Below, one piece after another: positions 22,355 through 25,662 of a stretch of 32,213 nucleotides of DNA. Numbering within the stretch: position 1 is the first letter of the stretch; every line of letters starts with the position of its first letter. A program made the position numbers and the translations under genes. Under the pieces are notes generated by a model. The model saw only the letters and a program-made list of their open reading frames with translations, had not been told where the DNA came from and did no database searches. Source of the DNA: Planctomycetota bacterium (lineage in GTDB: Bacteria > Planctomycetota > UBA8742 > JACQVU01 > JANLHZ01). The stretch spans positions 1 to 32,213 of the forward strand of contig JANLHZ010000123.1 in the NCBI GenBank assembly GCA_024653775.1. Direction: 5' to 3'.

Positions 22355-22406
22355 AATGAAATTCAGTCCTCGACAAATTGACAATGATTGCTAAAGGGTC
22401 ATAGTG

Positions 22407-22493
22407 TTATAAAATATACCGGCTCAAGTCCTCGTCCCTTACCGCGTCTTTGAGGCGCTGATCGACGAATTGCTCGCATGGGCGGACGAAGTC
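22407..22493 (-). pseudogene. Duplicated hslU 3' end
   Basis: These 87 bp align without gaps to the last 87 bp of hslU (23041-23127), about 85% identical. On the minus strand they encode EQFVDQRLKDAVRDEDLSRY-IL-stop, the HslU C-terminal tail. Most differences inside the conserved part are synonymous, so it was a functional coding end once. It lies beyond the GxxExxY cassette, as expected if that cassette arrived with or displaced an hslU 3' end. Confidence 0.8.
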
Positions 22494-22501
22494 TATATTA
22501 T

Positions 22502-22533
22502 TTCTTTGTGCTCTTTGTGTTCTTTGTGGCTAT
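22502..22533. repeat. 32-bp inverted repeat, left arm
   Basis: It matches the reverse complement of 22993-23024 at 31 of 32 positions. Internally it is three near-identical 9-mers of the form YTCTTTGTG, followed by GCTAT. It overlaps the stop codon of the GxxExxY gene. Confidence 0.85.
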
Positions 22534-22922
22534 TCTTCAATCGCTTGGTTACCCGCGTACTTTTTGATCTGGAAACGGTAGGATCCGAAATTTATTAATA
22601 AACCATGCTTTTTTCTCGACGATTTCAGGTATCCGAGAATCTGAGCGGTATGTTCCGCAGCAAGAGCTTTGACCGCTTTGAGTTCAATTATAACGACATT
22701 CTCAACAAGCAAATCTGCGAAGTATTCTCCGATGATCGTTCCATCTTCATCATAGACCGTTATTGGGTGTTGCTGTTCGACTTTGATGCCAGTCTTTCGC
22801 AGGCGGTGTGCGAGAGCGTTTTCGTAAACTTTTTCGAGATGTCCATGGCCGTGATAGACATGAATGTCGAAAGACGTTTGCCTGATTTTGTCGCAAAGCT
22901 CCCGAACTGTTTGTTCGTCCAT
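22530..22922 (-). CDS. GxxExxY family protein
   Basis: A 130-residue protein of the GxxExxY family: the signature is G27-H-L-E30-K-V-Y33, and the PD-(D/E)XK-like residues D70 and E80-L-K82 follow ('YFADLLVENVVIIELKAVKAL'). The family is widespread and often mobile, with no established function; the fold suggests a nuclease. ATG 22922 has GGAG about 8 nt upstream. The gene lies between two 32-bp inverted repeats and between two copies of the hslU 3' end, so the whole 22.4-23.04 kb segment looks like a compact cassette. The stop codon is formed inside the left repeat. Confidence 0.88.
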   Translation of the reverse strand: MDEQTVRELCDKIRQTSFDIHVYHGHGHLEKVYENALAHRLRKTGIKVEQQHPITVYDEDGTIIGEYFADLLVENVVIIELKAVKALAAEHTAQILGYLKSSRKKHGLLINFGSYRFQIKKYAGNQAIEE

Positions 22923-22992
22923 ATTCGATCTCCAATTAAAAATCCAAATTCGATAGCCACAAAATTATCGAAGGCTATTTGGAAAATTTTTT

Positions 22993-23024
22993 ATAGCCAC
23001 AAAGAACACAAAGATCACAAAGAA
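22993..23024. repeat. 32-bp inverted repeat, right arm
   Basis: Pair of 22502-22533, in opposite orientation, located between the GxxExxY start codon and the hslU stop codon. A partial extra copy (ATAGCCACAAA) occurs near 22957. Confidence 0.85.
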
Positions 23025-23040
23025 TTCTGTGGACTATTCG

Positions 23041-24402
23041 TTATAGAATATATCGGCTCAAATCCTCATCCTTTACCGCGTCTTTGAGGCGCTGATCGAC
23101 GAACTGTTCGTCGATGCGAACGAAGTCGGTCGCCGCGCCGGGGACGTCGAACATGATGTCTTCGAGGACGCGTTCCATAACGGTGTGGAGTCTGCGCGCG
23201 CCGATGTTTTCGATGCGGGAGTTGATTTCGAACGCGAGTTCCGCGATGCGTTTCAGCGCGCCGGGGGTGAATTCGAGCTTCACGTTTTCGCTTCCGAGAA
23301 GCGCTTCGTACTGTTTCGGGAGCGCCGCTTTGGTTTCGTTAAGGATCGCGAGGAGGTTTTCCGCAGTAAGGCTCGTCAGCTCGACGCGGATCGGGAACCT
23401 GCCCTGAAGCTCCGGGATGAGGTCCGCGGGTTTCGACATATGGAACGCGCCCGCCGCGATGAAGAGGACGTGGTCGGTCTTGACGGGACCGTACTTGGTA
23501 TTCACCGTGCATCCCTCTACGACGGGGAGCAGGTCACGCTGCACCCCCTCCCGGCTGACGTCCGGCCCGGAGCGCTTTCCGCCCTCGCTACCAACCGCGA
23601 CCTTGTCGATCTCGTCAAGGAAGATGATGCCCATCTGCTGGGTGCGCTCGATGCCTTCCCGCTTGACTTTGTCGGGATTGATGAACTTTTCGCTTTCCTC
23701 CTCGACGAACTTGGCAAGCGCGTCCGGCACCTTCACCTTCACGTTCTTCGACTTTTTCGGCGCGAACTTCTCCATCAGGCCTTCCATGTCGAAGCCCATC
23801 TGGTCCATGCCGCCCTGGGGGCCGAAGATTTCGAACATCGGCGCCTTCGATTCCTGCACCGTGATCTCGATTTCCTCTTCGTCGAAATGCCCCGCAATGA
23901 CCTTCTCGCGGATTTTCGCGCGCTGCTTGCTTTGCTGGTCGAGCCGTCTGCGCTTCTCTTCGTCCGGAAGGGTGGGATCGAGCTTGTCGAATTTGTGGAG
24001 GTGATCGACGACGCGATCGAGCGCGCGTTCGCGCGCCTTACTCGCGACTTCCTCGCGCTGCTCCGCGCGGACGAGGTTGATGCCCACCTCGACGAGATCG
24101 CGGACCATGCTCTCGACGTCGCGACCGACGTAGCCGACCTCGGTGAACTTGCTCGCCTCGACCTTTATAAACGGCGCGCCGACGAGGGTCGCGAGCCTGC
24201 GCGCGATTTCGGTTTTGCCGACACCCGTGGGACCGATGAGGATTATGTTCTTCGGCGTTATCTCGCGCTGGAGTTCCGCATCGAGCTGCTGCCTGCGCCA
24301 GCGGTTACGAATCGCGACGGCGACCGCGCGCTTCGCGGCTTCCTGACCGATGATGTATTCGTTCAGGTAGTGGACGATTGCTTTGGGAGTTAGGTGCTTC
24401 AC
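23041..24402 (-). CDS. hslU: HslU, ATPase subunit of HslVU protease
   Basis: This 453-residue AAA+ unfoldase feeds substrates into the HslV peptidase. Visible parts are Walker A GPTGVGKT (57-64), Walker B in GIIFLDEIDKVA, the inserted I-domain (roughly 110-230) and the C-terminal tail DLSRYIL that docks into HslV. The start is GTG 24402, overlapping the hepT stop in GTGA; the N-terminus (LTPKAIVHYLNEYIIGQ) is the normal one, so no coding sequence was lost. Uniquely here, it is separated from hslV by an mntA-hepT pair, and its translation now appears coupled to the toxin gene. Confidence 0.96.
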   Translation of the reverse strand: MKHLTPKAIVHYLNEYIIGQEAAKRAVAVAIRNRWRRQQLDAELQREITPKNIILIGPTGVGKTEIARRLATLVGAPFIKVEASKFTEVGYVGRDVESMVRDLVEVGINLVRAEQREEVASKARERALDRVVDHLHKFDKLDPTLPDEEKRRRLDQQSKQRAKIREKVIAGHFDEEEIEITVQESKAPMFEIFGPQGGMDQMGFDMEGLMEKFAPKKSKNVKVKVPDALAKFVEEESEKFINPDKVKREGIERTQQMGIIFLDEIDKVAVGSEGGKRSGPDVSREGVQRDLLPVVEGCTVNTKYGPVKTDHVLFIAAGAFHMSKPADLIPELQGRFPIRVELTSLTAENLLAILNETKAALPKQYEALLGSENVKLEFTPGALKRIAELAFEINSRIENIGARRLHTVMERVLEDIMFDVPGAATDFVRIDEQFVDQRLKDAVKDEDLSRYIL

Positions 24403-24770
24403 GTAACTTCGTCTCCTCGAATTTTTGGGCTTCTACTTCCGCTCAGGAACGATCCAACTTTAGATTTCACGTCGGGCAATTCATTCGAAATCGTATCCCA
24501 TAGCACTTCGGGATCGACATCGAAGTAGCCATGAACTATCCGATTTCTCATTCCTGTCATCAGGTGCCATGGAACATCGATACAATCCTTGAGTTCGTCT
24601 TCGATGTAGTTCGCTGACTCACCTATAACCGTGAAGTTGGCGACTACCGCTTGAATGGTTTTTCTGTCATTCAGAAATTCGTTGCGAGTCAAGTCACCAA
24701 CGAAGGATTCAATCTCTTCAATCGCGACAAGAATGTCGTTTAACCTTTCTCTGCCGGTTCTAGAAGACAT
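24399..24770 (-). CDS. hepT: HepT-family (DUF86) HEPN toxin
   Basis: A 123-residue HEPN RNase toxin. The R-x4-H catalytic motif is R75-N-R-I-V-H80, and the following Y82 (GYFDVD) is the tyrosine that MntA-type antitoxins AMPylate. ATG 24770 is preferred to the upstream in-frame ATG at 24806, because HepT proteins begin like MSSRxxRERLNDIL and this start gives an 11-bp overlap with mntA. Its stop overlaps the hslU start by 4 bp. It looks intact. Confidence 0.9.
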   Translation of the reverse strand: MSSRTGRERLNDILVAIEEIESFVGDLTRNEFLNDRKTIQAVVANFTVIGESANYIEDELKDCIDVPWHLMTGMRNRIVHGYFDVDPEVLWDTISNELPDVKSKVGSFLSGSRSPKIRGDEVT

Positions 24771-25068
24771 AGATACACTCGGCGAGAACTTTTTCGCGAA
24801 CGGCATCTTTCAATCCTCCTGGCGTAACCAGATCGACTTTAACGCCGAGTATTTCCGCCAGGCGCGATTCGCATTCCGCGAGACCGAAGTATCCTGTCGG
24901 TCTGCCGAAGGTAATGAGTATATCCACGTCGCTGCTTTCGTTATGTTCCCTTCTGGCGACGGAGCCGAACAGCTTCAGGCGCTGGACGCCGAAATTGGTT
25001 TTCAGCTCCGCTTCACTCGATCGAAGCAATTCGACAATTTCATCAGTGTCTAGTTTTGCGACTTGCAT
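24760..25068 (-). CDS. mntA: MntA-family nucleotidyltransferase antitoxin
   Basis: A 102-residue minimal nucleotidyltransferase. The family motif GSxAR...DxD is complete (G35-S36 in LFGSVARRE, D47 and D49 in SSDVDIL). In characterised pairs this enzyme AMPylates HepT to inactivate it. ATG 25068 follows a GAGG Shine-Dalgarno. It overlaps hepT by 11 bp and lies 60 bp after hslV, with its own probable promoter in that gap. Confidence 0.9.
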   Translation of the reverse strand: MQVAKLDTDEIVELLRSSEAELKTNFGVQRLKLFGSVARREHNESSDVDILITFGRPTGYFGLAECESRLAEILGVKVDLVTPGGLKDAVREKVLAECIYVF

Positions 25069-25128: not shown

Positions 25129-25662
25129 TCAGATCTCCTGAATTTCGAGTTCGTGGTTGGTGTAGATGCAAATATCCGCGGCGATGTGCATCGCTTTCAT
25201 GGCGACTTCGCGGGCGCTGAGGCTCGTTTCCGCGATAAGCGCTCGCGCCGCCGCGAGCGCGTAACTGCCGCCCGATCCGATGGCGATTACGCCGTCCTCG
25301 GGTTCGATGACGTCTCCCGTGCCGCTGAGCATGAAAATGCTCTTCGCGTTCGCGACGATCATCACCGCCTCGAGTTTGCGAAGCGCGCGATCGGTGCGCC
25401 AGGTCTTTGCAAGCTCCACCGCGGCGCGTTGGAGGTTCCCGCCGAATTTTTGAAGCATCCCCTCGAATCGCTCGACCAGCGCGATGCCGTCCGCGGCGCT
25501 CCCAGCGAAGCCACAGAGGACCTTGCCCTCATCGAGAACGCGGATCTTTTTCGCGCTCGCCTTCACTACGGTGTGTCCGAGCGTTACCTGCCCGTCGCCG
25601 GCGATACAGGTTTTGCCGTCCCGCGAGCAGCAAAGGATTGTTGTCGATCTGATTTTTTCCAT
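25129..25662 (-). CDS. hslV: HslV, peptidase subunit of HslVU protease
   Basis: A 177-residue N-terminal-nucleophile threonine peptidase, the proteolytic chamber of HslVU. After a six-residue propeptide (MEKIRS), maturation would expose T7 in [10 protein letters not shown], aligned with Thr1 of E. coli HslV; the [13 protein letters not shown] and GFAGSAADG blocks are typical. Two cysteines directly after the active-site region are unusual but not in catalytic positions. The usual partner hslU lies 0.7 kb downstream, beyond the inserted mntA-hepT pair. Confidence 0.95.

Follow-up and report, generated by a model that had tools for sequence, protein, structure and literature searches.

The window, the whole stretch of 32,213 nucleotides analyzed here, comes from a contig of a Planctomycetota bacterium. 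At positions 22530-22922 on its reverse strand lies a gene, identified from its open reading frame and profile matches, for a 130-aa protein of the GxxExxY family (PF13366/TIGR04256; PD-(D/E)XK nuclease fold). The gene is enclosed by two inverted arms of 32 nt each, 459 nt apart: a left arm (22502-22533) on its 3' side, which holds the stop codon, and a right arm (22993-23024) on its 5' side, which repeats the left arm in inverted orientation, with 31 of 32 positions matching (97% complementary). Each arm contains three near-copies of a 9-mer (TTCTTTGTG, CTCTTTGTG, and TTCTTTGTGG). The original prediction had described the inverted arms exactly, and the tripled 9-mers and the enclosed gene with its stop codon inside the left arm were also found again, the encoded protein (P0001) scoring well above the cutoffs of TIGR04256 (124.8 bits, cutoff 35) and PF13366 (116.4 bits, cutoff 22). 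When folded, the arms form a long stem around the gene, and a search of the window against Rfam matched no family. For a comparison of arms that does not depend on a motif, the upstream flank of each gene was aligned with the reverse complement of its downstream flank, and a score of at least 14 was counted as a pass. The window arms score 29.5, whereas 1.9% of shifted control positions reach 14, and CCACAAAGAACACAAAG occurs, with up to two mismatches, at 17 sites in the 5.4-Mb window genome, while its reversed control occurs at none, which argues that the arms did not arise by chance. The majority of the repeats of this type in the window genome have no GxxExxY gene alongside. The window arms are also "inside-out", in that their conserved (T)AGCCAC/AACCAC end points towards the gene, whereas in most relatives it points away from it; this orientation had gone unremarked in the original prediction.

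The unit adjoins hslU (23041-24402; TIGR00390, 604.9 bits). Just outside both arms is an 88-bp direct repeat of the hslU 3' end, a feature absent from the original prediction: the native end lies at 23040-23127, and beyond the opposite arm, at 22406-22493, lies a truncated second copy that is 85% identical, both on the reverse strand. The duplication and the inside-out arms make the window copy atypical of its class. A 124-bp gene-end duplication brackets another GxxExxY unit (locus L099), and it may be that insertion has two outcomes, of which a duplication of this kind is the less frequent. Through drift the hslU-end copies are now 85% identical whereas the arms are still 97% alike, so that, if both date from the insertion, the window arms have been maintained since. 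A HepT-like/MntA-like toxin-antitoxin pair (24399-25068, reverse strand) lies between hslV (25129-25662) and hslU and interrupts the hslVU operon. This pair and a DUF4268 ORF near the unit were checked for repeat arms, and neither has any.

The window protein carries the signature residues GHLEKVY, D70, and E80-L-K82, which are invariant in our alignment of the family (A1), and the G-x-x-E-x-x-Y, D, and E-x-K positions are conserved in 122 to 125 of 125 genes. An AlphaFold2 model of a GxxExxY protein (pLDDT 91.9) has as its closest solved folds the lambda-type exonucleases and SSO0001, which we take to be a member of the Cas4 family. The predicted Cas4/lambda-exonuclease-like fold would suit an enzyme that acts on DNA ends or single strands. 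Searches of PHROGs and of PDB sequences gave no strong match, and a PADLOC search gave weak matches only (E = 0.0014).

Association with arms of this kind is general among GxxExxY genes. A search of named genomes with a single protein yielded 79 loci, whose proteins are 65% to 81% identical, mainly in Verrucomicrobia and also in Planctomycetes, Lentisphaerae, Kiritimatiellae, Hydrogenedentota, Acidobacteria, and Chloroflexi, as well as in one cyanobacterium and in Trichlorobacter. The motif CRCARAGAWCRCARAG is present within 300 bp of the gene in 76 of these loci and flanks it on both sides in 57. Arrays number 1.4 per 250 bp beside the gene and about 0.03 per 250 bp further off; expressed per kilobase, there are 3.07 arrays near the gene and 0.12 far from it, with 0.57 in far intergenic DNA. 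The commonest layout is a pair of arms that face each other across the gene (arm > gene < arm), the 5' arm at a median of 18 nt upstream of the gene start and the 3' arm frequently overlapping the end of the ORF. Additional hairpin doublets frequently adjoin the unit in a stack, which at L047 reaches seven. By the motif-free test, 70% of 125 distinct genes have inverted arms scoring at least 14, compared with 1.9% of 372 shifted positions (p = 1.7e-35), and outside the clade of the window 32 of 52 genes pass, compared with 4.6% of mismatched flank pairs. A lack of such association elsewhere had been named in the original prediction as the result that would overturn it; the arms accompany GxxExxY genes across phyla.

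The sequence of the arms varies with the protein they enclose. Other GxxExxY genes of the window genome have different arms (for example, ATCCGCAGATTACGCAGATTACGCAG and CCACGAAACACACGAAAGTCACGAAA), and the arms of paralogues within a genome are no more similar than the baseline of unrelated pairs (0.30). Between genomes, protein similarity and arm similarity are correlated (Mantel r = 0.74, 80 genes), also when the clade of the window is left out (r = 0.51, p = 2e-4). At protein identities of 60% to 80% the arms are 80% to 83% identical, compared with 30% to 33% at 4-fold sites, which are saturated at this divergence. Taken together, these results indicate that the arms are constrained or homogenized and that they follow the protein, not the genome. 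Co-inheritance of gene and arms could explain part of this coupling. Some GxxExxY genes of genome G017 (L212, L213, and L210) lack arms; their scores are close to those of single copies found in the majority of that family's genomes, and they are possibly domesticated.

Empty sites, which the original prediction had proposed to look for, were found for relatives of the window unit. In G017 two units lie about 2 kb apart inside a cell-wall gene cluster (L205), and neither is present at the corresponding orthologous position in four related genomes (G019, G016, G012, and G007), where the flanking genes are 14 to 36 bp apart and in one case 107 bp apart. These sites show that the family is mobile. 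The inserted block spans roughly from arm to arm, and the absence of both L205 units from the four relatives identifies the arms as the approximate termini of an inserted unit of about 490 to 530 bp. Since G019, the closest of the four, is also without both units, it is simpler to assume that they inserted in the lineage of G017. With arrays masked, the flanks have no excess of direct repeats that would indicate short target-site duplications, and at the L205 sites, where the sequences are too diverged, no duplication was definable. Plasmids were considered as a vehicle and rejected, as each of eight records is below 60% identity.

The ends of the unit are also dispersed without an intact gene. 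Genome G008 contains dozens of hairpins of about 88 bp (GGCCACGAAAACAC...GTGTTTTCGTGGCC) that consist of both ends of an L205-type unit with the gene missing, and that fold strongly as single-stranded DNA (z = -8.4). The arm of this hairpin is present in 85 copies in G017, 49 in G008, and 38 in G019, compared with 0 to 3 in 38 other genomes. A cognate gene (at least 69% identity) is present in G017 and G019. In G008, which has 49 copies of the arm, a search for an intact close cognate found none, the best match being 51% identical and cut at a contig end, so that the match between gene and repeat is good and not perfect. A 326-bp composite insert containing one such hairpin is absent in G017; two doublet insertions in G008 sit within composite repeat clusters, and their boundaries are not base-exact. 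Palindromes at L239:8496-8644 in G008 (GGGGACTGTCCCC/GGGGACAGTCCCC) belong to a separate repeat family that is dispersed in G008, G017, and G019.

In a further genome (G032, L166-L199) about 35 attC-like cassettes are dispersed at scattered chromosomal sites. One, of 387 bp from arm to arm, is full length; the majority are GxxExxY genes with internal deletions that keep the N- and C-terminal codons. They start with GTTGGGCGG and end in an attC-like hairpin, and the flanks diverge immediately beyond; this end and the immediate divergence suggest an integron-type route in the G032 lineage, where another recombinase may move the copies. The window genome (G000) contains a gene-less cluster of several different repeat hairpins, including the arm family of the window (C289, L153:1660-2310), and a further GxxExxY gene split over two contig ends (the end of L161 in C171 and the start of L162 in C249), apparently broken by an insertion with the terminal repeat CGTTATTCAC/GTGAATAACACG.

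A second protein family occurs in units of the same architecture. All six 23S_rRNA_IVP genes (PF05635) of the window genome are flanked by short tandem repeats arranged as inverted arms. Of 31 IVP genes 27 pass the arm test, whereas shifted positions pass in 4 of 61 cases and mismatched pairs in 2.5%. These genes encode a four-helix bundle, and each has its own repeat (L294-L299 and L300-L327). The length of the repeat unit follows the protein family: GxxExxY arms are built from units of 8, 9, 10, and 11 nt in 6, 58, 13, and 2 genes, respectively (8 to 10 nt in 77 of 79, with a mode of 9), and IVP arms from units of 6, 7, and 8 nt in 1, 23, and 3 of 27 genes. Because unit length follows the protein, a role for both families becomes testable. 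The intervening sequence in the 23S rRNA gene of Coxiella is 428 nt long and encodes S23p; its ends form a stem of 28 bp, and heptamers are repeated in tandem ahead of the ORF (PMC4990558). With these heptamers and this stem, it fits the 7-mer IVP arms found here. An ORF of 185 aa with weak HEPN-like similarity lies between arms of the window's family in G000 (C142, L154:1442-2158). As this is not a GxxExxY gene, arms of the window type can carry other genes.

The reading that we favor, and consider rather probable, is that of a compact mobile unit that has inverted arms of tandem repeats of about 9 nt as its termini and GxxExxY as its sole gene, and whose protein recognizes and processes its own arms. 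The unit would insert between genes as a block of about 460 to 540 bp, and its ends alone would spread as short hairpins. From the observed association, insertion, dispersal, arm constraint, and arm-protein coupling, we infer that the GxxExxY protein binds its own arms; the form bound is most likely a hairpin of single-stranded DNA (possibly RNA), which the protein may cut or process, thereby driving movement of the unit or of its ends. The minimal mobile or repeat-processing unit of the original prediction thus stands for the family with respect to association, empty sites, and dispersed gene-less copies, and that the nuclease does the moving is a proposal of ours. On such a mechanism the GxxExxY unit would correspond to the RAYT/REPIN pair, with a nuclease fold in place of the RAYT enzyme, and would have as its sister the 23S rRNA intervening sequences with 7-mer arms and a four-helix-bundle (S23p) protein. 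More tentatively, and with the balance of probability against it, GxxExxY and IVP units might be two branches of one hairpin-armed class, in which the protein reads the arms and determines how long their repeat unit is (about 9 or 7 nt). This would be an undescribed mechanism, in which the repeat hairpins are the substrate of the unit's own Cas4-like nuclease, and at about 490 bp such units would rank among the smallest elements known to move themselves.

In the main rival, to which we assign a rather low probability, other machinery acts in trans to move the arms, be it a reverse transcriptase, an integron integrase, or repair by the host at hairpins, and GxxExxY is a partner, or a passenger that helps to keep or regulate the unit. 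Movement in trans would be consistent with the sharing of one architecture by two unrelated folds (nuclease and four-helix bundle) and the 185-aa HEPN-like ORF, with the attC-like site that ends the G032 copies, and with the reverse transcriptases of the four genomes that were checked, each of which has between one and three. However, arm sequence and unit length track the encoded protein family and not the genome, and the catalytic residues are retained in a gene that, as a passenger, would not need matching arms. The same specificity of the arms for the gene family argues against a defence or toxin-antitoxin cargo lying by chance in repeat-rich intergenic DNA. The nuclease fold, the adjacent HepT/MntA pair, and the weak HEPN-like ORF within the same arm family would fit such a cargo, but we consider it improbable, as the HepT/MntA pair has no such arms and the PADLOC matches are weak (E = 0.0014). 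Still less probable, to the point of being very unlikely, is a stationary gene whose repeats serve in regulation or mRNA structure and are not the termini of a mobile unit. The long stem enclosing the gene and the position of the 5' arm, a median of 18 nt before the start codon, are what this explanation would predict; four genomes with empty sites contradict it, as does the dispersal of gene-less copies. A hairpin in sense-strand RNA is ruled against by the lack of a strand-specific wobble bias (79 versus 104, p = 0.08), which also speaks against a stationary gene.

If the compact mobile unit with its own processing nuclease is real, the widespread GxxExxY family, whose role has so far been unknown, would gain a concrete, testable role and a substrate. 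It would also be connected with the 23S rRNA intervening sequences, which have long lacked an explanation, and a large class of tandem 7-mer and 9-mer repeats dispersed in bacterial genomes would be explained. The rule that unit length follows the protein family is a prediction that a single binding experiment could check.

A literature search, which included the repeat strings and left most subscription journals outside its reach, found nothing on the GxxExxY family or these repeats, and several known systems resemble the unit in part. By the classical criteria for insertion sequences, the window unit has no known transposase and no short duplication was detected, while the 88-bp duplication is present. 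Among miniature inverted-repeat elements (MITEs), the hupL MITEs of Thiomargarita have been linked to PD-(D/E)XK_2 "Yhg-A" transposases (PMC4853749). Like the derivatives described here, MITEs are internally deleted copies that retain both ends, and the Thiomargarita nuclease is in the same superfamily; however, it belongs to PF12784 and not PF13366, and the arms of the present units are tandem repeats, with no target-site duplication defined. Cyanobacterial STRR are heptamer repeats. TAACTGA heptamers are found in Beggiatoaceae (PMC4853749). Both are intergenic tandem 7-mers in direct and inverted orientation, and the literature searched links neither to a gene family.

Closer in layout are the REPIN/RAYT systems, in which a gene with flanking inverted repeats is accompanied by many gene-less hairpin doublets (PMC3116915, PMC8266576). 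The same arrangement is present in the G017 family and in the arm family of the window (17 sites, with doublets in C289). RAYT (TnpA-REP) is an HUH (Y1) transposase, whereas GxxExxY has the PD-(D/E)XK fold, and its arms are tandem arrays of 9-mers in place of a tagged palindrome. In the 23S rRNA intervening sequences, too, inverted repeats at the two ends pair into a stem with a small ORF between them, but their protein is the four-helix-bundle S23p/IVP (PF05635), unrelated to the nuclease fold of P0001, which matches PF13366, and arms of their type are built from 7-mers and not from units of about 9 nt. They also sit inside 23S rRNA and are excised by RNase III, whereas the window unit adjoins hslU and the copies inspected here lie between protein genes, outside 23S rRNA. 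The GxxExxY class is thus like REPIN/RAYT and the intervening sequences in layout and belongs to neither by its defining protein.
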